Positions 42,163-60,880 of a stretch of DNA of 64,000 nucleotides are shown here, piece after piece. The notes below the pieces were generated by a model. It searched no databases and was not told the origin of the DNA. It saw only the letters and a program-made list of their open reading frames with translations. Each line of letters begins with the position of its first letter. The first letter of the stretch is position 1. The DNA lies in contig NZ_NISK01000005.1 of assembly GCF_002205675.1 (NCBI RefSeq), positions 62,001-126,000 of the forward strand. Reading direction: 5' to 3'. The translations under genes were made by a program, and so were the position numbers. This stretch comes from Sphingopyxis bauzanensis (GTDB lineage: Bacteria; Pseudomonadota; Alphaproteobacteria; Sphingomonadales; Sphingomonadaceae).

Positions 42163-42276
42163 GCCGCGGCGATATGCTGGCGCGGCGCGCGTGCTTTCGA
42201 TATGATCCGATTCTTCGCAATTTGATCAGTTCGTTGCCCACGGCGTTCTCGCCCGCCGGTGCGCCAGGGGGGATGT

Positions 42277-43368
42277 TTGAGCGTCATCGAATACAAGGGT
42301 TTCGGCGGCGTCCCGCTGTCCGCCGACGTGCTGGGCGACGACAACGACCCCGCGGTGTTGCTGATCCCCGACATTGGGCAGCAGCGCAGCGCGTGGCGCG
42401 CGGTGGCCGATGGCCTGGCATTGTCGGGGCGCCGGGTGGTCAGTCTCGACTTGCGCGCGTCCGGCGGCGTTGACCAACTCGCCGCCCATGTCGAAGATTT
42501 GCGCCTCGTCCTCGCGCAGATGGGGTCGCGCCCGGTGGTGGTCGCCGCGCGGCACGGTGGCTGGATCGCGACGCGCGCGCTCGCGACCGACGGCATATTG
42601 TTGGCGGGCGGCCTGGTACTGGTCGATATGCCCGACGATGCCGACGCCGTTGCCGAAGGCATTGCGGCGCGACAAGCGCTGCCGACGCTGGTCGTGCGCG
42701 GCGGCTTTGCGGCGGCGCCGATTACTTCCGAGTGCGATGTGTTTGCTGCCGCGCTGCCGATCGGCGAACAGGCCGACATCGACGATAGTGATCTGGCGCT
42801 GGACGCCGACCGGACCGAGGCATTACTGGGGCAGCTGCTCGAATTTCTCGAACGCCGCCAGCCGCGCGAGGCGACCGAGTTTCAGGCGGGCTCCGATCCG
42901 CGCACGCTGCGCGATGCGATGGGATGTTTCGCCACCGGCGTCACCATCGTCACCGCGCTTGACGCGGCGGGAGTGCCGGTGGGGCTAACCGCGAATAGTT
43001 TCACATCGGTATCGCTCGACCCGCCGCTCTTGCTGGTGTGCATCGCCAATTCGGCGGGGACGGCTCCCGCCCTGCGCGAGGCGGGCCATTTTGGGGTCAA
43101 TGTGCTGCAAATTGGCCAGCAACCCGCGTCGAACCGCTTTGCGACGCGCGGCGAGGACCGGTTCGCCAACCTGCCCTGGGCGCCGGGACAGACTGGGGTG
43201 CCGCTGCTCGGCAGTTCGCTGGTGTCGTTCGAATGCCAACGCGAATCGCTGCACGAGGCGGGCGATCATTTCATCATGGTCGGCCGCGTCGTGCGCGCGC
43301 AGTTCGAACCGCACCGCGACCCGCTGCTCTACTTCCGCGGCAAATATCGCCGGCTGCATTTCGCTTAA
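42277..43368 (+). CDS. fusion of degenerate alpha/beta hydrolase and flavin reductase domain
   Basis: Residues about 1-200 follow an alpha/beta hydrolase fold (LLIPDIGQQRSAWRAVADGL, VVSLDLRASGG), but the nucleophile elbow reads AARHGG, with His where Ser belongs. Residues about 205-363 are a flavin-reductase-like FMN domain (RDAMGCFATGVTIVTALDAA, LTANSFTSVSLDPPLLLVCI, ending YFRGKYRRL). The reductase half would supply reduced flavin to an oxygenase. TTG 42277 (MSVIEYKGF) follows a G-rich ribosome site; GTG 42259 is the alternative. It is downstream of the flavoprotein gene, probably in one transcript. Confidence 0.82.
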   Translation: MSVIEYKGFGGVPLSADVLGDDNDPAVLLIPDIGQQRSAWRAVADGLALSGRRVVSLDLRASGGVDQLAAHVEDLRLVLAQMGSRPVVVAARHGGWIATRALATDGILLAGGLVLVDMPDDADAVAEGIAARQALPTLVVRGGFAAAPITSECDVFAAALPIGEQADIDDSDLALDADRTEALLGQLLEFLERRQPREATEFQAGSDPRTLRDAMGCFATGVTIVTALDAAGVPVGLTANSFTSVSLDPPLLLVCIANSAGTAPALREAGHFGVNVLQIGQQPASNRFATRGEDRFANLPWAPGQTGVPLLGSSLVSFECQRESLHEAGDHFIMVGRVVRAQFEPHRDPLLYFRGKYRRLHFA

Positions 43369-43394: not shown

Positions 43395-43405
43395 TGGCGG
43401 AGCGG
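43395..43405 (+). repeat. putative distal attachment-site copy
   Basis: A direct copy of the last 11 bases of the tRNA-Ser gene (TGGCGGAGCGG on the plus strand), 27 bases after the flavin-reductase fusion stop and just where base composition turns AT-rich. The match ends at 43406. Confidence 0.55.
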
Positions 43406-43552
43406 AAGCTATTTTAGAGTATAAATTATTTATTTTATATATCTTTCTAAATACTCATGCTTCAAGTTCGGTCGCACGCAAGTCCCTCTGCGCGCATGAA
43501 TTCATCATTCATTCCATAAAGCCCCTACGCCAGATTGCGTCATTGTTGTCTA

Positions 43553-44401
43553 GGCCGTGTTGACAAAAGGGATTCCCAATCGCGTCGACTTCTGATTCAA
43601 GACTGCTTTTTGAGGAGCAGTCATGGGTCGCGGGGATTTGTCGGAAGCGGAGTGGGATCTGATTGGGCCGCTGCTGCCGCCTGAGCGCGGTCGTTGGGCG
43701 CGGCCGGCGGGCGATAACCGGCGGTTCCTCAATGGAATGCTTCACGTGCTGCGGGTCGGCTGCCCCTGGCGCGACATGCACGAGCGCTACGGCAAGTGGA
43801 ACTCGGTCTATGTCCGCTTCCGGCGCTGGGCCGAACAGGGTGTCTGGGATGCCCTGCTGCAAACACTGGTCGATCTGGGTCTAACCGACGACTGGCAACA
43901 CATGATCGACAGCACCAGCGTTCGCGGCCACGTCTCGGCAGCGGGCGGAAAAGGGGGGCTTGTGCGAACGCTCTTGGTCGATCACGCGGCGGCTTTACGA
44001 GCAAAATCCACGCCCGCTGCGACAATCAAGGACTGCCTGTCGGCTTCATCCTGACCGGCGGCGAGGCTTCCGATTACACTGCTGCCGAACCGCTGATGGC
44101 GATCCCCGTCGCCACACCCAAGGCGCTGCTCGCGGACAAGGGATATGATGGTGATCGCTTCCGGGAAAGCCTGCTGGTCCGGGGCATCCTGCCGATCATC
44201 CCGCCTCGCTCGAACCGCAAGGTGCCAGAGCATCCCGACTATCGCCGCTACAAGGACCGCAACCGCGTCGAGCGCATGTTCGGCAAGCTAAAACAGCAAC
44301 GACGCATTGCAACACGCTATGACAAAACCCTGCTCTCGTTCGAGAGCTTCCTCAACCTCGCCGCCATGCGACTATGGCTGAAATCTTTTGTCAACACGAC
44401 C
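43553..44401 (+). mobile_element. IS5-family insertion sequence (IS427-like group), 849 bp
   Basis: The ends are near-perfect inverted repeats: GGCCGTGTTGACAAAAG at the left and, inverted at the right, GGTCGTGTTGACAAAAG. A TA dinucleotide flanks both sides (43551-43552 and 44402-44403), the target duplication expected for this group. The element contains one transposase gene in two overlapping frames and looks intact. It lies within the AT-rich part of the tRNA-Ser island. Confidence 0.9.
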
Positions 44402-44404
44402 TAA
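43623..44404 (+). CDS. IS5-family transposase, two frames joined by -1 frameshifting
   Basis: Frame A (from ATG 43623) encodes the N-terminal DUF4096-type part (DLSEAEWDLIGPLLPPERGR, CPWRDMHERYG) and the first catalytic Asp in HMIDSTSVRGH. At AAAAGGGGGG (43949-43958) a -1 slip enters frame B, which continues ACANALGRSRGGFTSKIHA, the second Asp in LADKGYDGD and the Glu in RNRVERMFGKLKQ. Frame A alone runs on to a stop at 44052-44054. The slippery run is the usual programmed site in this group, so the gene is probably functional rather than broken. The TAA stop (44402-44404) is formed from the target duplication. Confidence 0.88.
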
Positions 44405-44556
44405 AATCATTTGTACTTCTACGAAGCGTTCCGATCAGGGTAGTTGGACGGCAACCGTCTTACGGCCATCGTGGCGCCAGCGACAGCGAAGGCTTACCCG
44501 ATGTTTACCGTCGGCCGGTAGCGGTGCACCACATGCGACAAACTCTCTCCACTGTG

Positions 44557-44584
44557 TGAAACGTCGGTAGCGACGTCCGTTTCA
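44557..44584. repeat. inverted repeat downstream of the nucleotidyltransferase gene
   Basis: TGAAACG at 44557-44563 faces CGTTTCA at 44578-44584, with an alternative inner stem CGTCG-GTAG-CGACG (44562-44575). It starts 16 bases past the minus-strand gene's stop and may end its transcript, though no T-run follows. Confidence 0.4.
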
Positions 44585-44599
44585 TATAGGGTCGGGAAT

Positions 44600-45526
44600 T
44601 CAGGTGCGCGAGGCGTTGGCATCAAGTTCGGCGATCCGCTCGGAGCAGATCGCGTGGACCGCGCGGCCGAGTTCTTCGACGCGCTCGCCGAGCCAGCGCA
44701 GTTCCTCTTCGGTGATCCGGTAATGTTTTGAGTAGCGCGCTTTCACATAGGCTTCTTTGAGCTTCTCGAAGCGTGAACGATCAGCCTTCATCTCGCGGGG
44801 CCATGCATCGACAAGACGCATGTCGATCCGCTCGGCCTGGGTGCGCAGAAAGCCGAGATTGTGGACGTGCGGGCTATAGAAGGTGCAGACCAAGAGTACG
44901 CAGTGGTAAAGGCGCTCGGTAGCCTGATGTAGAATGAAGGCCGCATCTCGAAGTTCGTTTTGCGATATGAAGAAATGAAACCCCTTCTGCGCACTGGCAG
45001 CGAGCGGAATCCATTCGTCAAAATATTCCTGCGCCATGGCCAGAGCCTGCTCGGGGGTCTTGGGTTTCGGCTTGTGCAGTTCCTTATCGTCAAATTCGTA
45101 AAGCGCGATGCCGTCCTTGGCGACGTCCATGAAAAAATAGCGCCCGTGCGCGAGCCCATCGTTCACTTCCTGAATCGTGTGGACGATGAAGTTGACCGGC
45201 GTATGGAGCGTCTTGTCGATCGCCAGCTCGCGGTTGAGCCGGTCCTCAAGCTTCAGCCAATAATCCACCTTGTCGGTAAGCCGCTTGTCGCTGACGATAA
45301 TCAGCAGGTCGAAGTCCGAGCGGTAGCCCTTGGCGGTATGCGGTTCGTCGACCCAGCCGCCGCGCGAATAACTGCCATAGAGAATGAGCTTGTCGATCCG
45401 GCCCTTCTTCTTCCAACTCATCGTCGCGAGCGCGATGCTGTCGGCAAATTCTTCGAAGATGATCTGCTTTACGCGCTCAAGTTCGCGCTGCTTGTTGGCC
45501 GGGAGATGATCGAGGTCGGTTCTCAT
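44600..45526 (-). CDS. nucleotidyltransferase-HEPN fusion protein
   Basis: The 308-residue protein has an N-terminal Pol-beta-like nucleotidyltransferase domain (LYGSYSRGGW at residues 49-58, then the metal site SDFDLLI with Asp71 and Asp73) and a C-terminal HEPN domain (residues about 170-290), with FILHQATERLYHC and ARYSKHYRI (Arg264, His268) matching HEPN motifs. In toxin-antitoxin pairs of this kind the two domains are separate: HEPN is an RNase toxin and the nucleotidyltransferase AMPylates it. Here both are in one chain. ATG 45526 lies 50 bases inside the upstream sigma-like gene. Confidence 0.85.
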   Translation of the reverse strand: MRTDLDHLPANKQRELERVKQIIFEEFADSIALATMSWKKKGRIDKLILYGSYSRGGWVDEPHTAKGYRSDFDLLIIVSDKRLTDKVDYWLKLEDRLNRELAIDKTLHTPVNFIVHTIQEVNDGLAHGRYFFMDVAKDGIALYEFDDKELHKPKPKTPEQALAMAQEYFDEWIPLAASAQKGFHFFISQNELRDAAFILHQATERLYHCVLLVCTFYSPHVHNLGFLRTQAERIDMRLVDAWPREMKADRSRFEKLKEAYVKARYSKHYRITEEELRWLGERVEELGRAVHAICSERIAELDANASRT

Positions 45527-45899
45527 TGCTGGCGGCACCCTGTCGGCGCAGCGGCTGGTTGGCAAGATCGAAGCGGTGTAATCGCCGCCAGAACTGCCAC
45601 CACCTGCGGTTCTTTCCATCGACCGTCTGAGCGATGATGCGCAGACTGCGGATCATCGCCTGTTCGACCTCGGCAACGCTGACGCCATGGCGCTCGACAA
45701 GTTCGCGATAGCTCAGCTCCGCGACGCGGTGGCCGAGAAAGATCGCGCGATACCCCTCGTCGATCCGATCGACGGCGCGCTCGTACTTACGGAGCAGGTG
45801 GCGCCGCGCGCGGGTGTAACGGCTCACCGATTCCTCCCACCGCAATAGTTCGCCCAATCCTCCATCATGACGCGCCGCTTTTCGAGACGGTTTCACCAC
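45477..45899 (-). CDS. sigma-70 region-4-like helix-turn-helix protein
   Basis: A 140-residue protein with a region-4-like helix-turn-helix in its middle (FLGHRVAELSYRELVERHGV, then SVAEVEQAMIRSLRIIAQ); there is no region 2, so it is not a complete sigma factor. The C-terminal 40 residues are basic and low in order. GTG 45899 has GGGAGG 10 bases upstream. It overlaps the nucleotidyltransferase-HEPN start by 50 bases, so the two are expressed together. It may act as a regulator or promoter-binding partner of the island genes. Confidence 0.7.
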   Translation of the reverse strand: MVKPSRKAARHDGGLGELLRWEESVSRYTRARRHLLRKYERAVDRIDEGYRAIFLGHRVAELSYRELVERHGVSVAEVEQAMIRSLRIIAQTVDGKNRRWWQFWRRLHRFDLANQPLRRQGAASNENRPRSSPGQQAART

Positions 45900-45919
45900 C
45901 GGTAGGCCGCCTCCCTTGA

Positions 45920-45947
45920 ATGATAAGATTTAGTCATACATTGGCAA
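45920..45947 (-). promoter_or_regulatory. sigma-70-like promoter of the island gene pair
   Basis: On the minus strand a -35 box TTGCCA (45942-45947) and a -10 box TATCAT (45920-45925) are separated by 16 bases, within an AT-rich patch, about 20 bases before the GTG start of the sigma-like gene. Both boxes are close to consensus. Confidence 0.55.
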
Positions 45948-46054
45948 AATGTCGGACTGGACGACGTCGGACGCGCAGGGATACGAAGCGCCCTTCAAAC
46001 CCGCAGCTAAGCTGGAGTCTTGGGGACGGTTCGGGAGAGAGTGGGATTAGAACT

Positions 46055-46145
46055 TGGCGGAGCGGGTGGGATTCGAACCCACGATAGGCTTTTGACCTAT
46101 ACTCACTTTCCAGGCGAGCGCCTTCGACCACTCGGCCACCGCTCC
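46055..46145 (-). tRNA. tRNA-Ser (anticodon GGA)
   Basis: Read on the minus strand: acceptor GGAGCGG pairs with CCGCTCC followed by discriminator G and encoded CCA. The anticodon loop CTGGAAA gives GGA. The long variable arm (TATAGGTCAAAAGCCTAT) is typical of serine tRNA, and GGTTCGAATCC is the T-loop. Length is 91 with CCA. Its 3' end points into the accessory island and is duplicated at 43395. Confidence 0.97.
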
Positions 46146-46218
46146 GCATGCTTGGAACGCGCGCCCTAATCGCTGGACGGGGCTTTCGCAAGTCGGTTGA
46201 GCATGGCAGACAGGCGGC

Positions 46219-47130
46219 ATGAAACATCTGCTCCTGGCCGCCGCTGCCGCTTCGCTTACCCTTCCGGCTACCGCGCAGGAACCTGCGCCGATCCCGTCGC
46301 CCGGCGAGATCACAGCTGCCGCGCCGGCGAGCGACTGGATTGCGATTGCCGCGGCGGACCTGTTGGTGATGGACTTGGCGCCCGACGCTAAGGGCAAGGC
46401 GCGCCGCGTGGTGATCCAGCTTATGCCCGCACCGTTCAGCCTGGGGTGGATCGGCAATATTCGCAAGCTTGCCGCGGCGCAATGGTGGGACGGGACGAGC
46501 ATTAACCGGGTGCAGGACAATTATGTCGTGCAGTGGGGCGACGCGACCGAGAAGAAGGCGTTGCCGGAAGGTTTGGTGACGGTACCGGAGAGCGCGTATC
46601 TCTCGGAGCGTAAGCGTGGCGCAACGACGTGGTTGCCGTCTGCTAATGGCTCATACGCTCCTCATCATGGTGTTCTGGCGGGTTGGCCGGTCGCTTGGAA
46701 TGCCGACGCGGTGTGGCCCGTCCATTGCTATGGCATGGTTGGTGTCGGCCGGAACTTTTCGCCCGACACCGGCAGCGGTGCTGAGCTCTATACGGTGATT
46801 GGCCACGCTCCGCGTCATCTGGACCAGAATATCGCTCTTGTTGGCCGCGTGGTCAGCGGGATCGAGCATCTGTCGAGCTTACCGCGCGGGACCGGCGCGC
46901 TGGGCTTCTATGAGGATGAAAAGGAGCGGGTGCCGATTACGTCGGTCCGGATCGCTACCGAACTGGATGTGAGCGACCAACCGCGCTTCGAATATCTGTC
47001 GACCGAAAGCGACAGCTTTGCGCGCTATGCCGACGCCCGCGCCAATCGCCGCGATCCGTTTTTCATCAAGCCTGCTGGCGGTGCTGACATCTGCAACATT
47101 CCGGTGCCGGTGCGATCGGTCGAAAAATGA
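46219..47130 (+). CDS. secreted cyclophilin-type peptidylprolyl isomerase
   Basis: A 303-residue protein with a signal peptide (MKHLLLAAAAASLTLPATAQ). The central part is a divergent cyclophilin: WWDGTSINRVQDNYVVQWGD stands for the FxRvi.fm.QgGD segment, and HLDQNIALVGRVVSGIEHL for the end of the barrel. The chain is longer than a minimal cyclophilin (about 165 residues), with an insert around residues 110-190. It would help fold exported proteins. It follows tRNA-Ser on the opposite strand. Confidence 0.85.
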   Translation: MKHLLLAAAAASLTLPATAQEPAPIPSPGEITAAAPASDWIAIAAADLLVMDLAPDAKGKARRVVIQLMPAPFSLGWIGNIRKLAAAQWWDGTSINRVQDNYVVQWGDATEKKALPEGLVTVPESAYLSERKRGATTWLPSANGSYAPHHGVLAGWPVAWNADAVWPVHCYGMVGVGRNFSPDTGSGAELYTVIGHAPRHLDQNIALVGRVVSGIEHLSSLPRGTGALGFYEDEKERVPITSVRIATELDVSDQPRFEYLSTESDSFARYADARANRRDPFFIKPAGGADICNIPVPVRSVEK

Positions 47131-47139
47131 TAGTCCCCA

Positions 47140-47220
47140 GCGGTTCGCATCAAGCGACGTCGAGGTGTCCTGGCGTCGTGCGCTCCGACTGGGTGTCTCG
47201 ACTTCGCTCGACACGAACGG
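47140..47220. repeat. dispersed palindromic repeat, CGAAGTCGAG family
   Basis: The right arm (47197-47220, CTCGACTTCGCTCGACACGA then ACGG) is the clearest copy of this family in the window. The left arm (near 47140-47164) is diverged. It lies between the isomerase and DUF1905 genes. Confidence 0.7.
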
Positions 47221-47232
47221 ACTAAGCGAAAG

Positions 47233-47547
47233 GTGGAAAGCTTTGTCGTCACCACCCCGCTCTGGCGCTGGCAGTCCGCGACTGCCCCCGCGGCGTGGTT
47301 TTTCGTCACGATCACGGGCGACGCAGCCGACGCGATCCGCATCGCGGCGATCAGCGGACAGTGGCTGAACGGGCGCAAGGGATTCGGATCGGCGCGGGTC
47401 GATGTCATGATCGGCGAGACAAGCTGGCAGACATCGGTGTTCCCGCACAAGGAAAGCGGCGGGTGGCTGCTGCCGGTCAAGGCTGCGGTGCGCAACGCCG
47501 AGGGGCTCGTCGAGGGCGATGAGGTGACGGTGACCGTCAGTCTTTAA
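47233..47547 (+). CDS. DUF1905 domain protein
   Basis: A 104-residue protein matching DUF1905, a small beta barrel: WFFVTITGDAADAIR, GFGSARVDVMIGETSWQTSV, GGWLLPVKAAVR and GDEVTVTVSL. Function is unknown. The GTG start at 47233 is preceded by GAAAGG. Its 3' end overlaps by 11 bases the end of a small minus-strand gene. Confidence 0.85.
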   Translation: MESFVVTTPLWRWQSATAPAAWFFVTITGDAADAIRIAAISGQWLNGRKGFGSARVDVMIGETSWQTSVFPHKESGGWLLPVKAAVRNAEGLVEGDEVTVTVSL

Positions 47548-47677
47548 CCGGGGTTTCGGCCTTGGCATCGCGCGACTGCGCCTTGCGCTTGCGCAGATTG
47601 TCGCGCAGCGCCTCCGCCAGGCGGCGTTCGCGTTCGATGTCGGCGGGGGAGGGCGGCTTGCTCACAATAGCGGCCAT
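47537..47677 (-). CDS. short conserved-looking basic protein, 46 residues
   Basis: An ATG at 47677 opens a 46-residue frame beginning MAAIVSKPPSPADIERERRL and ending AKAETPVKD. It is a single predicted amphipathic helix rich in Arg, Lys and Glu (EALRDNLRKRKAQSRDAK). Third-position GC bias is strong in this frame. Similar short proteins occur in sphingomonads as far as I recall, without known function. It overlaps the convergent DUF1905 gene by 11 bases. Confidence 0.65.
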   Translation of the reverse strand: MAAIVSKPPSPADIERERRLAEALRDNLRKRKAQSRDAKAETPVKD

Positions 47678-47783
47678 GCCCGCGAAATTGCCCCATCGTC
47701 AAGTCTCGCGCCTTGACAGGCGCGGGGCGCCCCGCCATAGGCCGCGCCTGCCCAGCGAACAGGCGTTTGCGGGCGTTTCGGTT

Positions 47784-47858
47784 GCTGCTGTAGCTCAGTG
47801 GTAGAGCGCGTCATTGGTAATGACGAGGTCGGGAGTTCAATCCTCCCCAGCAGCACCA
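47784..47858 (+). tRNA. tRNA-Thr (anticodon GGT)
   Basis: Acceptor GCTGCTG pairs with CAGCAGC, followed by A and encoded CCA. D-arm AGCTCAGTGGTAGAGC, anticodon stem CGTCA/TGACG with loop TTGGTAA (GGT), T-arm with GTTCAATCC. Length is 75 with CCA. Confidence 0.97.
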
Positions 47859-47968
47859 TTTCCCCCACGCTGGACATTTTGTGGCAGGCGGCTTGGGAAC
47901 CTTCACGCGCGAACGCCGTACAACGGGTCAGGGCGATATTTGCCCCTGACGGAGTCAATGACATCGAG

Positions 47969-48136
47969 ATGAGATTATGGGTCGCCTACGGCCTGATCGC
48001 CCTGATGGTGGCGGCCGCGGTCGCCGGCGTCGCCTATATTCGGCACAATCGCCCCGATCGCAAATATCTTCGTCGGCGCGAGCGCGAAGATCAAAAGAGC
48101 CGCGATCGCCTTGAGGCCAGCAATGCGCCCGAATAA
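47969..48136 (+). CDS. small membrane protein, 55 residues
   Basis: ATG 47969 opens MRLWVAYGLIALMVAAAVAG, a single membrane helix followed by a highly charged tail (RPDRKYLRRREREDQKSRDR). It lies about 110 bases after tRNA-Thr. It is too short for a family assignment; the hydrophobic-then-charged pattern supports a real gene. Confidence 0.5.
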   Translation: MRLWVAYGLIALMVAAAVAGVAYIRHNRPDRKYLRRREREDQKSRDRLEASNAPE

Positions 48137-48171
48137 CTTGGTCGGACGCAGCGGTTGAACTGCAAAGGGTG

Positions 48172-49071
48172 CTAAATCTTCGCCGCGAGCAGCCAGTCGT
48201 GGAACAGCTTGACCGCCGGTTGGCGCAATGCGCGCGGGCGGCAAACGAACCAGTAGCTGTACGGGCTGTCGACGTCGAAATCGAACAGACGCACCAGGCG
48301 CGGGTCGTGCGCGTCGTCGAAATGGTGGCCGTGCATGAAGGCGACGCCGATGCCTTGCGCCGCGGCCTCGAGCATCAGCGGTCCCGAATCGAAATAATCG
48401 ATCCCCGCCGGTTCCAGATACGGCATGCCGATCGCCTTTTTCCACTCGCTGAATGTCTCAGGCATCTCGCGGTGGAGGAGGACGGTCATGCGCTGCAATT
48501 GTTCGGGCACCACAAACGGCCGATCGCCATCGGTCAGCGTCCTAGCGGCGATCGGGAACACCTTGTCCTGATCGAGCCGCGCGGCATAGAGCGCCGGGTC
48601 GATCGAGCGTGCTAGGGCGATCGCAGCGTCGATGCCGTCGCCCAGCCGTGCTTCGGCGTGTGACATGGTGTCGATGTCGATATGCAGTTCGGGATGCTCG
48701 CGGCGCAGTTCGGGCAGGCGCGGGAACAGCCGCTGCTGGGCGAAGAGTGGCAGGACGTTGAGGTGCAGGCGTAACGATGCCTCGGGGCTGCCGACCTGGC
48801 CGATCACGGTCCGCAATTCGTCGAGAATCGGCGCTAACTGGCCTTGCAGCGCGCGGCCCGCCTCGGTCAGGCTGAGCCCGTGATGGTGGCGGTTGAACAG
48901 CGGGCGGCCGACGGCATGTTCGAGCGTCTGGATCCGCCGCGACAGCGCGGGCATCGACAGGCCGAGTTCGATCGCGGCAGCCTTGACGGTGCCGTAGCGG
49001 GCGACCTCGAGAAAGGCCTCCATGCTGCTGAGGGGAGGAAGGCGTGGCATATCCGGCACCGATGATGACAT
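48172..49071 (-). CDS. LysR-family transcriptional regulator
   Basis: The 299-residue protein has the LysR helix-turn-helix (MEAFLEVARYGTVKAAAIEL, ALSRRIQTLEHAVGRPLF) and a periplasmic-binding-like effector domain resembling the GcvA group (AAAQGIGVAF). ATG 49071 is used; ATG 49050 is an alternative. It is divergent from the CDC48-type ATPase gene with 132 bases between starts, so it may regulate it (positional inference). Confidence 0.9.
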   Translation of the reverse strand: MSSSVPDMPRLPPLSSMEAFLEVARYGTVKAAAIELGLSMPALSRRIQTLEHAVGRPLFNRHHHGLSLTEAGRALQGQLAPILDELRTVIGQVGSPEASLRLHLNVLPLFAQQRLFPRLPELRREHPELHIDIDTMSHAEARLGDGIDAAIALARSIDPALYAARLDQDKVFPIAARTLTDGDRPFVVPEQLQRMTVLLHREMPETFSEWKKAIGMPYLEPAGIDYFDSGPLMLEAAAQGIGVAFMHGHHFDDAHDPRLVRLFDFDVDSPYSYWFVCRPRALRQPAVKLFHDWLLAAKI

Positions 49072-49203
49072 GAGCCCGCGCGACTTGCCACAATTTTGTG
49101 CAGTGCGGCAAAGGGCGGCGAGGGGCCAAGCAACGGGCGGGGGTCGCAAATCGGGAACGACAACCCTATCTTCGGCATATCGAGTTTTTGAAGGAGACGC
49201 GCC

Positions 49204-51531
49204 TTGGCCGATGCAGCGGTAAAAGAAAAACAGGTGAAACTGCAGGTCGCGAATTCGCGCGCCGAGGAAAGCGGCGGCGGGATTGCGCGCATTCCGCGTT
49301 CCACGATGGCCGAACTGGGCGTCACCGAGGGTGATATCATCCAGATCAGCGGCAAGCGGCAGACGGCATCGCGCGTGGTGCTGCCCTATGCCGAGGATGA
49401 AGGGCTGGAGGTGATCCGTCTCGACGGTTTGCAGCGCGCCAATGCGGGCGCGGGCGCGGGCGACATGGTGATGTTGAGCCGGGTCGAGACGCGCCCGGCA
49501 ACGCGCGTCGTGTTCGCCCCGGCGCAGGAAAATCTGCGGCTGCAAGGATCGGCGAACGCGCTGAAGCGCAGCTTTTTCGGGCGCCCTGTCGTCGCAGGCG
49601 ATACCGTCGCGACCGCGGGGCAACAGCGGCTGGAATCGGGCGACATGCCGCCGCAGCTGCGCCAGATGCTCAACGCGCCTGCCTATGCGCTGGCCGAGGT
49701 GCGCCTGCTCGTCGTATCGGCAGCGCCCAAGGGCGTGGTGTTTATCGATGAGAACACCGAAATCGAATTGCTGCCCGAATATCAGGAGCCGCAGGACGCG
49801 CGCCGCACCGATGTCACCTATGACGATCTCGGCGGGCTCGGCGAAACGATCGATCAGCTACGCGAGATGGTCGAACTGCCGCTGCGCTACCCCGAATTGT
49901 TCCGCCGCCTGGGCGTCGATCCGCCGCGCGGGGTGCTGCTGCATGGCCCGCCGGGAACCGGCAAGACGCGGCTGGCGCGCGCGGTCGCGAACGAGAGCGA
50001 AGCGCAGTTTTTCCTGATCAACGGCCCCGAAATCATGGGGTCGGCCTATGGCGAATCCGAAAAGCGGCTACGCGACATTTTCGAGCAGGCCGCCAAGGCA
50101 TCGCCGTCGATCCTGTTCATCGATGAGATCGATTCGATCGCGCCCAAGCGCGGGCAGGTGACGGGCGAGGCCGAAAAGCGCCTTGTCGCGCAGCTGCTGA
50201 CGCTGATGGACGGGCTCGAGCCGCGCACCAATCTCGTCATCATCGCTGCGACCAATCGTCCCGACGCCATCGACGAAGCGCTGCGGCGTCCGGGCCGTTT
50301 CGATCGTGAAATAATCATCGGGGTTCCCGACGAAGGCGGGCGGCGCGAGATATTGGGCATCCATACCCGCGGCATGCCGCTCGCAGAAGATGTCGATCTG
50401 GCCGAACTGGCACGCACGACCTTTGGCTTTGTCGGCGCCGACATGGCGGCGCTGACCCGCGAGGCAGCAATCGAGGCGGTGCGGCGGATCATGCCCAAGC
50501 TCGACCTCGCCGAAGGAACGATCCCGCCCGAGGTGCTGGAGGAACTGCGCGTGACGCGCGATGATTTCAGCAATGCGCTGAAACGCGTGCAGCCATCGGC
50601 GATGCGCGAAGTGATGGTGCAGGCGCCGACGACCCGGTGGAGCGATATCGGTGGGCTCGACGCGGCGCGTGAGAAGCTAATCGAAGGCATCGAACTGCCG
50701 CTGAAGCATCCCGAGGCGTTCCGGCGGCTCGGGATCCGTGCTGCCAAGGGTTTCCTGCTCTATGGCCCGCCAGGCACCGGCAAGACCTTGCTCGCAAAAG
50801 CCGCCGCGCGCGAATCGGATGCCAATTTCATCTCGATCAAGTCTTCGGACCTGCTGTCGAAATGGTATGGCGAGAGTGAGCAGCAGATTGCGCGGCTGTT
50901 CGCCCGCGCGCGCGCCGTGGCGCCGACGATCATCTTTATCGACGAACTCGATAGCCTGGTGCCAGCACGCGGCAGCGGCACGTCGGGCGAGCCGCAGGTG
51001 ACCGAGCGCGTCGTCAACACGATCCTGGCCGAGATGGACGGGATCGAGGAGATGCAGTCGGTGGTCGTCATCGGCGCAACCAACCGCCCCAACCTGATCG
51101 ATCCGGCGCTGCTGCGCCCGGGACGGCTCGACGAACTGATCTACGTGTCGGTGCCCGACAGGGAAGGCCGCCGCCGGATTTTGGAAATCCAGACCGGCAA
51201 GATGCCGCTGGCGGACGACGTCGATCTGGCGGTTTTGGCAGAAAAATCGGACCGGTTCACCGGCGCCGATCTGGAAGATCTGACCCGCCGTGCCGGTCTG
51301 GCGGCGCTCAAGCGGTCGATCAACAGCGATACGGTGACGATGGCTGATTTCGACGCGGCGCTGAAGGACACCCGCGCCTCGGTCACCGAAGCCATGGAAA
51401 AGGATTATGAAAAGATCCAGGGCGAGATCAAGCAGCAGGCGATGAGCGTCAATCCGATCGGCTTTTTCGCGCCCGGCATGCTCAAGCCGGTGCGCGAGCA
51501 GAAGCATGGCGACGACGTCGTGAAGGATTAA
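49204..51531 (+). CDS. CDC48/VAT-type AAA+ ATPase
   Basis: The 775-residue protein has the full archaeal CDC48 layout: an N-domain (double-psi barrel then beta clam; [20 protein letters not shown], residues 28-47), and two AAA modules with Walker A GPPGTGKT at 248-255 and about 521-528, Walker B ILFIDEID and IIFIDELD, and sensor/Arg-finger segments ([21 protein letters not shown]). It unfolds protein complexes for degradation or disassembly. The start is TTG 49204 behind GGAG. The gene is unusual in bacteria but known in scattered lineages. Its stop overlaps that of the convergent MFS gene. Confidence 0.92.
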
Positions 51532-52838
51532 GCGGTGGGCTGGTCCAGCCGCAAAGCGGACCAGCCCCACAGCACCAGCCAGCCGCAGAATCCCGCCATC
51601 AGCCCATAGGCGACCATCGGGTGCCAGTTGTAGAGCAGGACGCCGATCGCAGGCGACACAATATAGGCGGACCCATTGATTGACGCGGTCATGCCCGCGA
51701 CGCTGCCCTGATCGCGCCGCGGCACCGATAGCGACGCGCCCGCGGTAAAGCCCGGGCGAAACAGCCCGAAACCGAGCGATGCGAGCGCGAAGCCGATCAC
51801 GATGCCGTGGAGATCCTGCGCTACTCCCGTGATGATGAGCCCACTGGCGCCGAGCGCTGCGCCGATCAGAACCGCGGTGCGCGCCGACAGTTTGAGCAGC
51901 GGGATCAGCCCCCACTGCGACAACAAGGTTGCGAAGGCGCCGGCCATCAGCACGATGCCGGTCATTGCGGCGCCTTCGTCGGGGCGGGGGCGAAGCTCGA
52001 GCCGATCAAGGATCAGGAAGCCGATGACGCCGAGCATCATCGCCTGCGCCTGACCGCCGCAGAGCCCGGCGAGCATCCATGGCCGAACGCGTTTGTCGGT
52101 CCAGCGCAGCGGCGTCGCGGCGGGGGCATCGCGATCCTCAACGTCTTCGTCGCTGTCCTCGCTCGCCGACGCTGTCGATCCGGCAGCGGTCGGATAGGCC
52201 GCGATCGCGCCGCGCGCGGCGAACCGCGGGACATCGTCGGGCAGCCGCCAGCGCAGCATGATCAGAACGATTAAGCCGATCAGGGCGAAAACCAGCAACG
52301 GTCCCGAAAGCCCGACAAAGGGCAGGATGAACAACGGCGCGATCGCAGGGCCGATCACAGTCCCCAGCCCGAACGACGACGAGACGAGCGATAATGCCTG
52401 GGTGCGTTCCTCAGGGTCGGTGCGCGACGCGACATAGGCCTGGACTGCCGGGGGCGCCGCCGATCCGAACCCGCCGTACAGGCTGCGGAACAGCGCGAAG
52501 ATCACGAACGTCGTTCCCGCGGCGAGATAGCCGGCCAGCCCGGCCCACAGCGCCAGTCCGCACAGCGCCATCGACAGCATGAAGCCGATCACGCCGAGCG
52601 CCATCAAGGCTTTGCGCCCGCGTTTATCCGACTGGCGCGCCCAATAAGGCGCGGTCATCACCCATAATAGCGCCGACCAGCTGAACGCCAGACTGACCCA
52701 CACGTCGGGAATGTCGAGCTTGGCGCCGATGGCAGGCAGGATCGACTGCATCGCGGTATTGCCCGCGGCAGCGACCAGCATGACCGCGAACAGGACGGCC
52801 ATGCGATCGGCGGGGATCGAGCGCGATAATGTCGCCAT
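51528..52838 (-). CDS. MFS transporter (TetA/drug exporter-like)
   Basis: This 436-residue protein has 12 predicted helices with the signature WARQSDKRGRKALMALGVIG between helices 2 and 3 and the motif SSSFGLGTVIGPAIAPLF in helix 5, which is characteristic of the 12-helix drug:proton antiporters. An acidic central loop (about residues 205-240, ASEDSDEDVEDRD) separates the halves. The substrate is unknown. It is divergent from the methyltransferase gene. Confidence 0.87.
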   Translation of the reverse strand: MATLSRSIPADRMAVLFAVMLVAAAGNTAMQSILPAIGAKLDIPDVWVSLAFSWSALLWVMTAPYWARQSDKRGRKALMALGVIGFMLSMALCGLALWAGLAGYLAAGTTFVIFALFRSLYGGFGSAAPPAVQAYVASRTDPEERTQALSLVSSSFGLGTVIGPAIAPLFILPFVGLSGPLLVFALIGLIVLIMLRWRLPDDVPRFAARGAIAAYPTAAGSTASASEDSDEDVEDRDAPAATPLRWTDKRVRPWMLAGLCGGQAQAMMLGVIGFLILDRLELRPRPDEGAAMTGIVLMAGAFATLLSQWGLIPLLKLSARTAVLIGAALGASGLIITGVAQDLHGIVIGFALASLGFGLFRPGFTAGASLSVPRRDQGSVAGMTASINGSAYIVSPAIGVLLYNWHPMVAYGLMAGFCGWLVLWGWSALRLDQPTA

Positions 52839-52989
52839 GCCGAAAATCCCCTTAGCCGTTCAGCGTCCGCAATCGGGCCTTTCCCTACACGCGAGCGCTC
52901 CCCTGTCCAGAGTCAAGACAGACTCTTTCCTTGCGCCAACGCGCTGTTTTTGCCACGCCAACGGCAACCGCAACAACGCGAAAGCCAAT

Positions 52990-53628
52990 ATGACCAATCC
53001 GCGGGCGCAGGCCCAAGAAAAGAAAGCTCCGCTGGGCCGCCGGGTCCGCGAGGGCCTCAAGCGCTTTTTCGGACCGTGGGGCATGTTTGTCCGTGGTTTT
53101 ATCAAGCATCCGGTCATGGTCGGGTCGATCGTGCCATCGTCGCCGACGCTGATCCGCCACATGCTGAAGCCCGTCGATTGGAAGAACACCAAGCTGTTCG
53201 TCGAATATGGCCCAGGGGTTGGCACCTTTTGCCGTCCGGTGCTCGAACGCATGGCGGGTGACGCGACGTTGATCGCGATCGACACCAACGAAGATTTTAT
53301 CGATTATCTGCGCAAGGATATCCGCGACAGCCGCTTTATCGCGGTTCACGGCTCGGCTTCCGAAGTTGAAGCGATCATCGCAGCGCACGGCTTTGAAAAA
53401 GCTGACTATGTCCTGTCGGGTCTGCCTTTCTCGACGTTGCCCGCCGGCGTCGGCCCGGCGATTGCGGCGGCAACGCACCGCGTTCTGCGCCCCGGCGGCG
53501 CGTTCCTTGTCTATCAGTTCCGCGCCCGCGCGCGCGATTTCCTCGCGCCGCATTTTGCCCGCATCGACAATGCGTTCGAGTGGGTCAATGTGCCGCCCTG
53601 CTTCCTGTTCTGGGGCTGGAAGGACTAA
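52990..53628 (+). CDS. phospholipid N-methyltransferase-like (PmtA family)
   Basis: A 212-residue SAM-dependent methyltransferase: a basic N-terminal amphipathic segment (LGRRVREGLKRFFGPWGMFV), VGSIVPSSP, SAM motif I VEYGPGVGTFCRPVL, and SGLPFSTLP at the position of the PmtA-type motif IV. PmtA methylates phosphatidylethanolamine towards phosphatidylcholine at the membrane; rRNA-dimethylase-like relatives exist, so the substrate is probable rather than certain. ATG 52990 is chosen from homology. It is tail-to-tail with a phospholipase-D-family gene. Confidence 0.8.
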   Translation: MTNPRAQAQEKKAPLGRRVREGLKRFFGPWGMFVRGFIKHPVMVGSIVPSSPTLIRHMLKPVDWKNTKLFVEYGPGVGTFCRPVLERMAGDATLIAIDTNEDFIDYLRKDIRDSRFIAVHGSASEVEAIIAAHGFEKADYVLSGLPFSTLPAGVGPAIAAATHRVLRPGGAFLVYQFRARARDFLAPHFARIDNAFEWVNVPPCFLFWGWKD

Positions 53629-54821
53629 ACTTCCAGATCGGGATCGGCGTCTCCAAGACCGAAATTGAGCCGCCGCGACACCGTATAGTCCGCGGCGCCA
53701 ACGACAAACCATGCGAGCGTCCAGCGCAGCCGCGTCAGCCATCCGGCTCGCGCCTTGTGCTTGGCGGCGGTGATGTCGTCGCAATCCGCCTGCTGCGCCG
53801 CGATGAAGCCCCGCATCTGCTCGGCAAAACCGGCGTCGGCGACGCGCAGCATCACCTCGACATTCACGAACAGGCTGCGCATGTCGAAATTAGCGGTACC
53901 GATATAGACGACATCGTCGATCACGATCAGCTTCATGTGCAGCTTGCAGGGGCGATATTCCCAGACCTGCGCCCCTTTGCGCAGCAGATAGCCATAGAGC
54001 AGCCGCGAGGCACCGATCGTTGCCGCATTGTCAGATTTCGCCGCCATGATGAAGCGCGCTCGGCCATGCCGGGCGACGCGGCTAAGGCGCCGCAGCATGC
54101 CTTGGCCCGGCGAGAAATAGGCCATCACCATGTCAAGTTGGCGCGCGCCGACCAAATCGGTGCGCACCGCTTGCGCCCATGGCGACAGCCGCTGGGTCGG
54201 GCCGCCGACCAGCCAGGTCACCGGCCCCGCCTCCACCGGCCATTCACGGATCAGGCGGCGGAGCATCAGCAGCTTGCCGTCGTTGGTCACGGTGTAGTCG
54301 TGGATTTCCTCGAACCACGCGACCATCCGCGCCACCGAGGACCCGCGTACGATGATGCCAAGATCAAACCAGCAATTGTCCAGCTGTGTGCCCAGATAGG
54401 GAGCCGCGATGTTGAACCCGCCGGTCACCGCCACCTCGTCGTCGATCAACAGCAATTTCTGGTGGTTGCGGATCAGATAGCTCGATCGCCAGCGCCGCGA
54501 GAAAAACGTCACGCTGCCGCCCGCTTCACGCAGCGGAACAAAGATGCTGTCCGCGATGCCCGATGAGCCGAAACTGTCGATCACCGCACGCACCCGTACG
54601 CCGCGCCGCGCGGCCGCGGTCATGGCATCGAGGACGCGCGTTCCGGCAGCGTCGTGCTCGAAGATATACATGATGATGTTGATGCTGCGGATGGCGCCAG
54701 CGAGCAGGGCGAGGATGCGTTCGAGCCTCTGGTCGCCGTCGACGATGACCTCCAGCCGGTGACCGGCGACGTCAGCGGTTAGCGTATCGAGATCGCTGGC
54801 AGGGCTGGATGCATCAGTCAT
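53625..54821 (-). CDS. phospholipase D-family enzyme (cardiolipin synthase-like)
   Basis: Both HKD motifs are present in the 398-residue chain: RNHQKLLLIDDEVAVTGGFN (His120, Lys122, Asp127) and KLHMKLIVIDDVVYIGTANF (His295, Lys297, Asp302). Two PLD modules without an N-terminal membrane anchor fit ClsB/ClsC-type cardiolipin synthases. The stop overlaps that of the PmtA-like gene on the other strand, placing two phospholipid enzymes together. Confidence 0.88.
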   Translation of the reverse strand: MTDASSPASDLDTLTADVAGHRLEVIVDGDQRLERILALLAGAIRSINIIMYIFEHDAAGTRVLDAMTAAARRGVRVRAVIDSFGSSGIADSIFVPLREAGGSVTFFSRRWRSSYLIRNHQKLLLIDDEVAVTGGFNIAAPYLGTQLDNCWFDLGIIVRGSSVARMVAWFEEIHDYTVTNDGKLLMLRRLIREWPVEAGPVTWLVGGPTQRLSPWAQAVRTDLVGARQLDMVMAYFSPGQGMLRRLSRVARHGRARFIMAAKSDNAATIGASRLLYGYLLRKGAQVWEYRPCKLHMKLIVIDDVVYIGTANFDMRSLFVNVEVMLRVADAGFAEQMRGFIAAQQADCDDITAAKHKARAGWLTRLRWTLAWFVVGAADYTVSRRLNFGLGDADPDLEV

Positions 54822-54961
54822 CGCCCGCTCATAGGCGGGGCGATACAAGCGCCGCAAGGGCAGCGCTTCGATTGACAGCGGCGGGCCGTCCTGCTAGCGC
54901 GCAGCGCTTGCCGCCACGCCTTCAAAAAGGGCTGGTCTCTCCGATATTCTAAGGAAACAAC

Positions 54962-55306
54962 ATGGCCCGCGTTACCGTCGAGGATTGCGTCGACAAGATT
55001 CCCAACCGTTTCGACCTGGTCCTGCTCTCCGCGCACCGCGCGCGCGAGATTTCAGGCGGTTCAGAGCTGACCATCGACCGCGACCGCGACAAGAACCCCG
55101 TCGTCGCGCTGCGCGAGATTGCCGAGCAGACGGTGCGTCCGAAGGATCTGAAGGAAACGCTGATCACGACGCTGCAGAAGGTTGTGATCGACGATGACGA
55201 TACGCCCGATGAAATCAGCTCGATCAGCCGCTCGGCCGAAGCCCTCCGCCTGACCGCCGCCGCGCCGCCGCGCAGCCCCGCGGGTGGGGGCAGCGACTTC
55301 GAATAA
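54962..55306 (+). CDS. rpoZ: RNA polymerase omega subunit
   Basis: The 114-residue protein starts [20 protein letters not shown] and contains [10 protein letters not shown] and [10 protein letters not shown], the conserved omega core; the last 40 residues are an acidic then Ala/Pro-rich tail. It helps assemble RNA polymerase and is one ppGpp-binding contact. AAGGAAA precedes the start. A terminator follows the gene. Confidence 0.96.
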
Positions 55307-55328
55307 GCGCTGCGACATGTGAACGAAG

Positions 55329-55355
55329 GGGCTGCGGGAAACTGCGGCCCTTTTT
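55329..55355 (+). terminator. Rho-independent terminator of rpoZ
   Basis: A 7-bp stem (GGGCTGC at 55329-55335 with GCGGCCC at 55344-55350, one wobble pair), an 8-base loop, then TTTTT at 55351-55355. It starts 23 bases after the rpoZ stop. Confidence 0.8.
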
Positions 55356-55358
55356 GTG

Positions 55359-55964
55359 TCAGCCGAAATCCTTGAGTTCGGCCACGCGGATCGCTTTCGA
55401 TGCCAGCATCGGTTCGATGATTCGCTGGATCCGGTGCGCGCGGGGTGAGCCGGCGGCAATGTTGAACAGGCTGTTGGCAATGACGTCGGCGATCTGTACC
55501 CCGTCGCTGCGGTGGCTTTCCGCCAGAGAGGCACGGCCCCACGCGCCGAGGCCCGCCTGAATCTCTTCGCGAACCTTGCCGAGTATCACTGGATCATAGC
55601 GGCCATCGTCGATCACGACATCGGTGCATACGCCGCCGGTTTCGGGCAGCCACCGCCCGACTGCGAGGTTGAGCAGCGCGGCATAGACCGACAGGTCGCT
55701 GGGAACGGCGCCACCAGGCTTCCCGCCGATCGTGTCGCGCCTCGCCATCGCAACCCAGGCGCGGCCACCGGCGCGATCGAAAAGTTCTAGCAGGTAGGCG
55801 CGCTCGACGAGGCTGATCCGGCTGCCTTTGAGTTCGCCGCGCAGGCCGGTGACGCTGCGAAACCGCGCATGAATGTCGGCGGCGACCTGCGGCGACAACA
55901 TGACCGCGGCAAACGTCATCGCACCGGCATTGAGCCCACCCGATTCGTCACAGTAAATCGTCAC
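55359..55964 (-). CDS. DUF3800 family protein
   Basis: The protein carries the family's near-N-terminal acidic motif YCDESGGLNAG and the later SHRSDGVQIADVIANSLF (the S..D.GvQ.AD segment), a fold related to RNase H-like nucleases, though activity is unproven for most members. GTG 55964 puts the motif at the start, as usual; ATG 56039 or 56060 would overlap the preceding gene. DUF3800 genes are often accessory, and some sit in defence loci, but no partner is seen here. Confidence 0.75.
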   Translation of the reverse strand: MTIYCDESGGLNAGAMTFAAVMLSPQVAADIHARFRSVTGLRGELKGSRISLVERAYLLELFDRAGGRAWVAMARRDTIGGKPGGAVPSDLSVYAALLNLAVGRWLPETGGVCTDVVIDDGRYDPVILGKVREEIQAGLGAWGRASLAESHRSDGVQIADVIANSLFNIAAGSPRAHRIQRIIEPMLASKAIRVAELKDFG

Positions 55965-55983
55965 CGGCGGCGGGGCCGATGGG

Positions 55984-56472
55984 TCACCGGACGCGGCCGA
56001 AGAAGGCGACCGAGCGGCTTTGCCCCGCGGGGACAGCATCACTCCACAGCCAGCGGACATGCGTGACGTCTCTCGCGGCGGCAGGCCGCTCTGCCGCGCC
56101 GGGGACGGCGACTGTCAGTGCAGCGAGCGCCCCATAGGTCTTGCCGCCATCGACGGAAACGGCAAAACCTGCGGTGTCATTTGTGCCATCAAAGATCAAC
56201 GCCTCGGGAATCGGGTTGGTCAGATTGACCCCCGCCGCCGGGGCGGCGCCATTGTTGGTGAAGGTGAGGGTCAGGCGAATGCGGTCGCTGGGCACGACGA
56301 CATCGGGCGTGGTGTAGGTCTTCTCGCCCTCGCGGCCATCAACGCCCGGTCCCGATCTTTCCAGTTCGAGCTTGTTCGTCAGCGCGCCGGTGCCCTGTGC
56401 CGCGGCGGGCAGAGCGCCCATCGCCAAGGCGGTGGCCAGCGTCACTATCGTCCACGATTTACGGATCATCAC
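55984..56472 (-). CDS. secreted DUF11-like repeat protein
   Basis: A 162-residue protein with a signal peptide (LATALAMGALPAAAQG) and one DUF11-like Ig-fold domain (SDRIRLTLTFTNNGAAPAAG, LTNPIPEALIFDGTND). Such domains occur in surface or periplasmic proteins, usually as repeats; this one has a single copy. It sits 20 bases before the DUF3800 gene, possibly in one transcript. Confidence 0.7.
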   Translation of the reverse strand: MMIRKSWTIVTLATALAMGALPAAAQGTGALTNKLELERSGPGVDGREGEKTYTTPDVVVPSDRIRLTLTFTNNGAAPAAGVNLTNPIPEALIFDGTNDTAGFAVSVDGGKTYGALAALTVAVPGAAERPAAARDVTHVRWLWSDAVPAGQSRSVAFFGRVR

Positions 56473-56502
56473 CGTCTCCTATGTCGATCGCTCCATGGCG
56501 GA

Positions 56503-56913
56503 TCAGGCAGGGCAGGGGTAGCGTTTCTTCATCAGCGCATCGAATGCCGTGTGGATGCTGACGCGCTTGCGCACCGGCGCGGGGTAGGAGCGTAGGTGGC
56601 CCAGCCACTGCTCGGGAGTCAGCGTTCCCGATTCGGGCGGGCAGCTGGTGGTTTTGCGCCCGGCGCGGCGATCGGCGTCAATACGCGCCTTGTAGCGTTT
56701 GCCCGCGGCGATCACCTCGCCTTTCAACTGATTGCCTTGCGGCGTCGCGAGCGCCAGGGGGCCGAGGCGGGCGAGCGAGTCGGCTCGCATCAGGAACGCG
56801 GCAACGCTCATGTCGCCCGGCGCCATCGCGCACAGCAGCGGCGCGGTCAGCAAGACAGGCAAGATGCGCGCGCGTTTCCCCAGGGTCATGCGCCGCAACT
56901 TGCCGTCAGCCAA
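56503..56913 (-). CDS. hypothetical secreted protein
   Basis: A 136-residue protein (start 56913, or 56889 giving MTLGKRARILPVLL) with a signal-peptide-like segment (ILPVLLTAPLLCAMAPG) and two later cysteines (TSCPPES, KRYPCPA) that could form a disulfide. I recognise no family. It follows ftsH by 38 bases on the same strand. Confidence 0.6.
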   Translation of the reverse strand: MADGKLRRMTLGKRARILPVLLTAPLLCAMAPGDMSVAAFLMRADSLARLGPLALATPQGNQLKGEVIAAGKRYKARIDADRRAGRKTTSCPPESGTLTPEQWLGHLRSYPAPVRKRVSIHTAFDALMKKRYPCPA

Positions 56914-56951
56914 TGAATACCCCCTGAATCGAGCGCGCCAGGTCGATCAGC

Positions 56952-58898
<1,947 letters not shown>

Positions 58899-58944
58899 GC
58901 GAGTACTTTCCTAATCGGCGCGGCGAGTGCGCTCCTATCCCGAC

Positions 58945-58972
58945 AAGATAGGATAATCAGGTTAAATGACAA
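58945..58972 (-). promoter_or_regulatory. promoter of ftsH
   Basis: Minus-strand -35 TTGTCA (58967-58972) and -10 TATCTT (58945-58950), 16 bases apart. An inverted repeat CCTATC/GATAGG (58934-58952) overlaps the -10 box and could be an operator. The promoter lies between the tilS stop and ftsH, so ftsH need not depend on read-through. Confidence 0.6.
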
Positions 58973-58980
58973 TGAGCCAA

Positions 58981-59991: not shown

Positions 59992-60880
59992 CCTGCGGAG
60001 CCTTGTCACCATAGACGTCTTCGAGCTCGCGGAACGCCTTGCAGGCATCGGCCTTGCGGCCCAGCTTGTCGAGCGCGACGCCCATGAACATCAGGCTGTG
60101 CGGCGCGCGGGCGCCGCTGGGGCGGTCCTTGTAATTATTATAGAATGCGACGGCGGCCAGGCTGGGCTTGCCTTCGTCGAGGTAAGCGCGGCCCAGCAGA
60201 TTCTGGGCAAAGCTGGCGTGGCTGCTGTTCGGCCATTTGGTCACGACCTGTTTCAGTTGCGCCTGCGCTTCGGGGTAGAGCTTGGCCTCCCATAGCCGAA
60301 ACCCATAATCATATGCGTCCTTGGTTTCATTGCCGGTCGCGGGGATTTCAACCGTTTTGACCAGCGCGAGCCGTGCCGCGTTGGGCGTTGTCGCGGCGGG
60401 TTTGGCAGCCGTGGCCGGGGGCTTCTTCGCCGGCGTGGCGGCTAGCGTCGACGTCGTTGTCGGCGCCGGAGCAGGGGCAAGGTTGGCGGGCGTTGCAGTG
60501 GCCTCGGGATCGGCGAAACGCTGATCCATTTGGGCTTTATAGGCGGTGAACTGCTTTTCGAGCTCGCGCAGCTGGAAGGCGTTCTGCTCAGCCTGGCCGG
60601 TCAACGTCTGGAGCTGGCTTTCCAAGGCGTCGACCCGCGCGGTCAGGTCGATTACCGGGGCGTTGCTACGCGCGCGTTCGCCAGGGGAGTTGTCGGGCGC
60701 AATCTCGCCCTCGAAAAAGGTTGGGCTGCCGCCGGGGAATACGGAGCGCTGGACCGCCCGCATTTCCTTTTCCAGCCGTTCGACGCGCTTGCCGATGGCC
60801 GCCTCTTGCGCGGGCGCGGGCATCGTCGCGGCAAGCGCAATCGTCGCGGCTCCCAGGAAAGTGATCTGACGCATTTTCAT
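59945..60880 (-). CDS. cpoB: Tol-Pal associated cell-division coordinator CpoB (YbgF)
   Basis: The 311-residue protein has a signal peptide (FLGAATIALAATMPAPAQ), a trimerising coiled coil (RVERLEKEMRAVQ; LTARVDALESQLQTLTG), a Pro/Ala/Thr-rich linker (about 135-170), and C-terminal TPR repeats (AYDYGFRLWEAKLYPEAQAQ; PNSSHASFAQNLLGRAYLDE). It links outer-membrane constriction with peptidoglycan synthesis. Overlap with tilS and order cpoB-tilS-ftsH match other alphaproteobacteria, but tol-pal genes are not upstream here. Confidence 0.92.
   Translation of the reverse strand: MKMRQITFLGAATIALAATMPAPAQEAAIGKRVERLEKEMRAVQRSVFPGGSPTFFEGEIAPDNSPGERARSNAPVIDLTARVDALESQLQTLTGQAEQNAFQLRELEKQFTAYKAQMDQRFADPEATATPANLAPAPAPTTTSTLAATPAKKPPATAAKPAATTPNAARLALVKTVEIPATGNETKDAYDYGFRLWEAKLYPEAQAQLKQVVTKWPNSSHASFAQNLLGRAYLDEGKPSLAAVAFYNNYKDRPSGARAPHSLMFMGVALDKLGRKADACKAFRELEDVYGDKAPQDVRTDAAAAKTKAGC

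Follow-up and report, generated by a model that had tools for sequence, protein, structure and literature searches.

What is the 2.66-kb segment that lies between a flavin-reductase gene and the tRNA-Ser(GGA) gene of Sphingopyxis bauzanensis, and in what state has it been left? The locus is in a stretch of 64,000 nucleotides, here called the window, on contig NZ_NISK01000005.1 of assembly GCF_002205675.1 (positions 62,001 to 126,000). The original prediction, made from the letters alone, was a remnant genomic island at 43395-46065, bounded by a short attachment-site duplication. We find that this segment is very probably a decayed genomic island in the 3' end of tRNA-Ser(GGA).

The 11-mer TGGCGGAGCGG occurs on the forward strand at 43395-43405 and again, in the same orientation and 2.66 kb away, at 46055-46065; this is just as the prediction had it, and the window has no further exact copy. 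The right copy, the near attachment site, lies within the 3' end of an intact tRNA-Ser(GGA) gene (46055-46145, reverse strand; ARAGORN, Rfam RF00005), whose 91 bases are identical to those of the tRNA in the island-free congener G021 described below. ARAGORN places the CCA end at 46055, pointing left toward the segment, in agreement with the claim that the tRNA 3' end carries the 11-mer and faces the island. The left copy is the far attachment site, a displaced tRNA-Ser 3' end, so that the segment has an intact tRNA gene on one side and a direct repeat of its 3' end on the other. An Rfam scan of 41-49 kb returned two tRNAs and nothing else above the gathering score. The genome as a whole (G000) holds 12 exact copies of TGGCGGAGCGG, counting both strands; if the 10 others are taken as the background rate, the 2,660 bases on one side should hold 0.003 same-strand copies, and a pairing by chance is thus unlikely. 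Composition also turns AT-rich at the left copy, as claimed: the guanine-plus-cytosine (GC) fraction is 0.374 in the island's left end (43406-43552) and 0.58 over 43406-46054, against 0.639 to the left (1-43394) and 0.643 to the right (46146-64000).

The prediction further held that, in relatives without the island, the flavin-reductase gene should directly adjoin tRNA-Ser(GGA) and the 11-mer should be present once. In the window, this gene (42259-43368, forward strand; 369 amino acids, C-terminal flavin-reductase-like domain, Pfam PF01613) lies outside the island on the left, and a cyclophilin-type peptidyl-prolyl isomerase gene that adjoins tRNA-Ser(GGA) in congener loci (46219-47130, forward strand; Pfam PF00160) lies outside it on the right. 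We examined tRNA-Ser(GGA) and the isomerase gene in 63 congener loci, 33 in a first set and 30 more from a second, in which 41 of 44 genomes matched and 30 yielded loci (one, L154, ends inside the tRNA). Five of the 63 have exactly the expected arrangement with a single 11-mer (G021, G029, G071, G085 and G095), and in all five the gene and the tRNA are no more than about 30 bases apart. GTCGA immediately precedes the 11-mer in the spacer of G021, G029 and G095, as it does in the window's left flank. When the window was aligned to G021 (L044), the left flank matched up to position 15115, where the left 11-mer ends, and the right flank matched from 15105, an overlap of 11 bases. A junction away from the 11-mer, which would have spoken against an island, was also looked for; the alignments to G021 and G029 both put it at the 11-mer. 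Other loci were less simple. Other DNA separates the gene from tRNA-Ser(GGA) in G010, G023 and G022 (the last with a distant homologue of the flavin-reductase gene), and G030 has the window's spacer followed by TGGCGGTGCAGG, with no tRNA in the remaining 5 kb of its contig. At the other loci the flavin-reductase protein was not matched within the stretches examined, which were at most 18.8 kb for the first 33 and about 1.3 kb for the other 30.

The same tRNA gene has been used elsewhere in the genus. Two more islands at tRNA-Ser(GGA) could each be matched to genomes in which the site is empty: one of 4.02 kb in G027, paired with G012 and G032 by alignment and with G026 by its flank, and one of 14.55 kb in G006, paired with G028 and G014. 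The five empty genomes might be states left after excision of the same or other islands, rather than states before insertion, given that the site is a hotspot, that integrase-mediated loss is precise, and that G071 and G085 differ in their gene-to-tRNA spacer. We consider this unlikely, though a possibility to be kept in mind, in view of the window's spacer being kept in three of the genomes and the tight gene-to-tRNA distance in all five. It is in any case compatible with a decayed island in the window, as the choice between the two histories leaves the identity of the segment unchanged.

A full-length relative of the island is found in G005. A DNA search over 80 genomes with the left 164 bases of the region matched G005 at 83% identity, at one end of an element of 10.86 kb (G005:C1:1523761-1534617) with the 11-mer at each end. 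This element consists, in order, of the same left end, cargo, a nucleotidyltransferase-HEPN gene 82% identical to the window's, a small gene resembling region 4 of sigma-70 factors (sigma4-like), an integrase gene and the same right end. The integrase, a tyrosine integrase at the tRNA-side end, has Arm-DNA-bind_3, Phage_int_M and Phage_integrase domains and is of the P4 type. The window's right end (45910-46054) is 94% identical to that of G005 and, with a query extended 26 bases into the tRNA, matched at 76-84% in G092, G002, G024, G035, G079, G021, G097 and G011 and partially in G013, G086 and G026. Together with the empty sites, this integrase-bearing relative with the same ends supports the interpretation as a remnant island. 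It also refines the repeat. The two repeats of the G005 element agree over 15 bases, TGGCGGAGCGGGAGG, and the window's repeat therefore appears eroded from a longer one, probably of about 15 bases originally; the 11 bases of the predicted duplication match exactly, while its length was probably greater once.

The G005 element no longer adjoins its tRNA gene. Between it and the present tRNA-Ser(GGA) lie 66.6 kb (C1:1534617-1601257) with another integrase gene near the tRNA, which suggests that a second island arrived at this tRNA afterwards and pushed the older element away from it. In G035, too, a stretch with a further integrase gene (C1:1779119-1785597) separates the older element from its tRNA-Ser, so that both genomes have tandem islands at one tRNA gene. 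The cargo of the G005 element matched NERD, HNH, DUF2726 and HTH_17/AlpA-like domains, some of them below curated cut-offs. At L116:7097-14501 it comprises a NERD-like protein, a DUF2726 protein and an HNH protein like the effector endonucleases of defence systems (PADLOC), and on account of this last match the cargo may be defensive.

How much of such an element is left in the window? It was claimed that no integrase remains. No complete one does; there is, however, a C-terminal stump of the last 31 codons (45827-45919, reverse strand, with one internal TGA), 74% identical to residues 317-347 of the G005 integrase. Compared with G005, which has the integrase gene inside its element, the window has lost 1,062 bases between GGCCGCCTC and CCTTGAAT, nearly the whole of that gene, with the deletion joint at 45913/45914 in the right end. 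The stump's stop codon overlaps the start of the sigma4-like gene (about 45477-45827, reverse strand, probable GTG start; Pfam Sigma70_r4_2 above cut-off) as GTGA, where G005 has ATGA. The same ATGA or GTGA overlap is present in G035, G024, G097, G021 and G002 and absent in G027, which has a less similar integrase. Next comes the nucleotidyltransferase-HEPN gene (44600-45526, reverse strand), an intact open reading frame of 308 amino acids with Pfam Polbeta and HEPN matches just under cut-offs here and above them in the G005 relative.

To the predicted account we add an IS5-family insertion sequence (IS) of 849 bases (43553-44401, forward strand), which accounts for roughly a third of the segment. 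Its transposase is split over two overlapping frames, both of which match NCBIfam NF033580, with Pfam in agreement. The element has 17-base terminal inverted repeats, GGCCGTGTTGACAAAAG and GGTCGTGTTGACAAAAG, alike at 16 of 17 positions, and is bordered on both sides by TA (43551-43552 and 44402-44403); thus IS5-type transposase, terminal inverted repeats and a short target repeat are all present. Homology of the left end to G005 breaks off exactly at this IS. Contig C27 ends in 124 bases of the same element.

These remains suggest a course of events, whose order we infer. An ancestor would have inserted into the 3' end of tRNA-Ser(GGA) by means of a P4-type tyrosine integrase from a clade that uses several tRNA-Ser genes, with a crossover perhaps near the shared TGGCGGA. 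Insertion would have duplicated the tRNA 3' end, probably over about 15 bases at first, of which 11 still match. An internal deletion, 1,062 bases by comparison with G005, would then have taken nearly all of the integrase, and the IS would have landed in the left part. Most of the cargo was presumably lost, perhaps through the IS, or was never common to G005, leaving both ends, the sigma4-like gene and the nucleotidyltransferase-HEPN gene. We therefore class the segment as a decayed derivative and not as an active island: of the predicted alternatives, non-autonomous or decayed, the second holds and the choice narrows to it because an internal deletion took the integrase. The remnant would no longer be able to excise by itself. 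Mobilisation in trans by an integrase of the same clade also seems unavailable now, since the other full-length integrase matches in this genome are 31-34% identical at best. A similar remnant is found in G013, which keeps the module, has a trace of the integrase gene over 84 bases (79%) and carries, at its right end, a degenerate repeat 127 bases before its tRNA.

Could the segment instead never have been autonomous, but a minimal cassette that depended on a related element's integrase acting in trans? Both ends are kept, the HEPN reading frame is intact, and congeners hold integrase-bearing elements with the same ends. However, an integrase stump at the expected place shows that a gene has been deleted, the genome has no other full-length integrase of the clade, and the repeat has come down to 11 of 15 bases, so that we regard this alternative as improbable. 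Least probable of all is a chance repeat around a segment built by IS insertion and random gene gain: there are 12 genome copies of the 11-mer and an IS inside the segment, but we rejected this idea on the strength of the empty sites, whose junctions fall at the 11-mer, and it fares no better with the same end sequences beside both copies in G005 or with two other islands at the same tRNA that obey the same rule.

Several observations weigh against the decayed island as we describe it. The empty sites of G071 and G085 carry spacers different from the window's, and each of the five empty sites could in principle have arisen by a precise loss at a later time. G010, which has the most similar isomerase (96%), holds the module at its site without the left 11-mer, and its HEPN gene is 81% identical to the window's, compared with 91-98.5% for three neighbour genes; for these two reasons the history at the site was not one simple insertion. 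The left end is rare, being matched by the search in just one of the 80 genomes besides the window's own. Finally, the 208 bases between the IS and the cargo genes (44402-44609) have no relative outside the locus among the loci compared, no collection having been searched with them, and give no pointer to the original cargo.

The integrases of this clade are found at several tRNA-Ser genes. Those adjoining tRNA-Ser(TGA) in G097, G021, G024 and G002 are 87-95% identical to that of G005 and have the same kind of right end. An N-terminal integrase stretch (83%) lies at tRNA-Ser(TGA) in G092, and in G035 a 95% copy is separated from a tRNA-Ser(TGA) by about 6 kb that include another integrase gene. 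More distant members are at tRNA-Ser(CGA) in G027 (73%) and at tRNA-Ser(GCT) in G026 and G086 (66-69%). The element of G002 lies in the gap that separates the flavin-reductase gene from tRNA-Ser(TGA); its left repeat, TGGCGGACAGGGTGG, is the 3' end of that tRNA. G024 has the same left repeat after the flavin-reductase gene and, about 24 kb away, the same right end at tRNA-Ser(TGA). Both genomes thus combine a left end that aligns with the window's with a 15-base copy of the tRNA-Ser(TGA) 3' end, which indicates that the repeat follows the target tRNA.

We also followed the two genes that remain in the window across the genus. Nucleotidyltransferase-HEPN-like proteins were found in 66 of 80 genomes, the window's genome included; in the latter, 18 matches were counted, of which 11, the window's copy among them, are near full length. 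Context was counted on the best 80 of 107 loci in named genomes. A sigma4-like frame lies directly upstream in 45 of these 80, and an integrase of this type lies within 900 bases upstream in 14, of which 13 also hold a tRNA gene (Ser, Thr, Phe, Leu or Gly). Sphingopyxis sp. KK2 is one strain that has an integrase-bearing element, at tRNA-Ser(CGA). The remaining 66 copies have no integrase of this type right behind them, with a few loci short upstream and other integrase types not sought, and this counts against a fixed unit of integrase and pair. In G000 (C22:498000-517900; L117), a cluster that includes at least two tyrosine recombinase genes has a nucleotidyltransferase-HEPN gene on either side, the two pointing in opposite directions.

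Nucleotidyltransferases of this kind are marked by the motif GS ... DxD, and HEPN RNases by Rx4-6H. We aligned 80 proteins, the window's and those of 79 of the 80 loci, one having been left out for a stop. GSYARG (GSYSRG in the window) and SD.D are conserved in at least 95% of them, so the nucleotidyltransferase motif is present. Rx4-6H is absent among the columns conserved at 95%, the nearest being RYSKH (Rx3H). This absence fits PMC3710099, which states that the RNase residues are typically missing from HEPN domains when these are fused to MNT. In PADLOC, the window's HEPN protein gave weak matches only (best E 1e-4, to candidate models), and the sigma4-like and integrase proteins gave none.

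Comparison of flanks suggests that the surroundings of two tRNA-Ser genes have been rearranged. We compared window positions 42259-43368 and 46055-46145 with loci L222-L228, L231, L236, L237 and L322-L332. The flavin-reductase gene lies near tRNA-Ser(GGA) in G000, G010, G021, G023, G029, G071, G085 and G095. It lies directly beside tRNA-Ser(TGA) in eight other congeners (G014, G006, G020, G016, G008, G031, G025 and G005), and in G002 and G011 an insert separates it from tRNA-Ser(TGA). In G029, G030 and G085, the sequence to the left of tRNA-Ser(TGA) matches DNA that in G001, G012, G026 and G032 is situated 5.9-7.2 kb to the left of tRNA-Ser(GGA). For the flank in G023, the matching DNA is in G019, some 10-11 kb to the left of tRNA-Ser(GGA); the corresponding flanks of G071, G095 and G000 had no DNA match in the same comparison. 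This looks like an exchange of flanks of the two tRNA-Ser genes between species, with junctions that are not exactly reciprocal. Elsewhere in G000 (C22:349056-391461; L332, L333), a tRNA-Ser(TGA) gene has an altered 3' half, and a 62-base fragment equal to the 3' part of the standard tRNA-Ser(TGA) lies 42 kb away in the same orientation; this region is likely a second island in the same genome.

As a tentative proposal, which we think possible but doubtful, the sigma4-like/nucleotidyltransferase-HEPN pair would be, rather than random cargo, a regular constituent of a large family of sphingomonad islands. It would follow integrases of different tRNA specificity, with overlapping codons in the tRNA-Ser clade, and control integrase expression, excision or island maintenance; the same integrases would recombine tRNA-Ser genes and so have exchanged the 3' flanks of tRNA-Ser(GGA) and tRNA-Ser(TGA) in this genome's lineage.

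Among the nearest known systems are islands with P4-type integrases. The G005 element likewise has such an integrase beside its tRNA-side end; unlike them, it has a sigma4-like gene and then a nucleotidyltransferase-HEPN gene behind the integrase. The segment also resembles the tRNA-gene islands defined by Islander (PMC4383910): one end has a regenerated tRNA and the opposite end its displaced 3' fragment, empty sites match, and the full-length relative has a tyrosine integrase; it differs in having a 31-codon integrase stump and only 2.66 kb left. With HEPN-MNT toxin-antitoxin modules (PMC11586414, PMC4621449 and PMC3710099) it shares the joint presence of both domains and the conserved nucleotidyltransferase motif. 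It departs from them in that the domains are fused in one protein with no conserved Rx4-6H. At the level of titles and abstract openings, in a survey that was not exhaustive, the literature described neither an arrangement of integrase, sigma4-like and nucleotidyltransferase-HEPN genes nor tRNA-Ser islands in Sphingopyxis.

We conclude that the segment is a well-documented example of a known and, as a kind, ordinary feature. With an empty site on one side, a full-length relative on the other and the remnant between, it is a cleanly bracketed case of island decay in which the loss of an integrase can be read base by base. It marks tRNA-Ser genes as an island hotspot in Sphingopyxis. Less ordinary are the apparent exchange of flanks of two tRNA-Ser genes between species and the recurrence of the pair behind integrases at several tRNA genes. 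The locus also draws attention to this integrase-linked sigma4-like/nucleotidyltransferase-HEPN pair, which is present in multiple copies in the genus.

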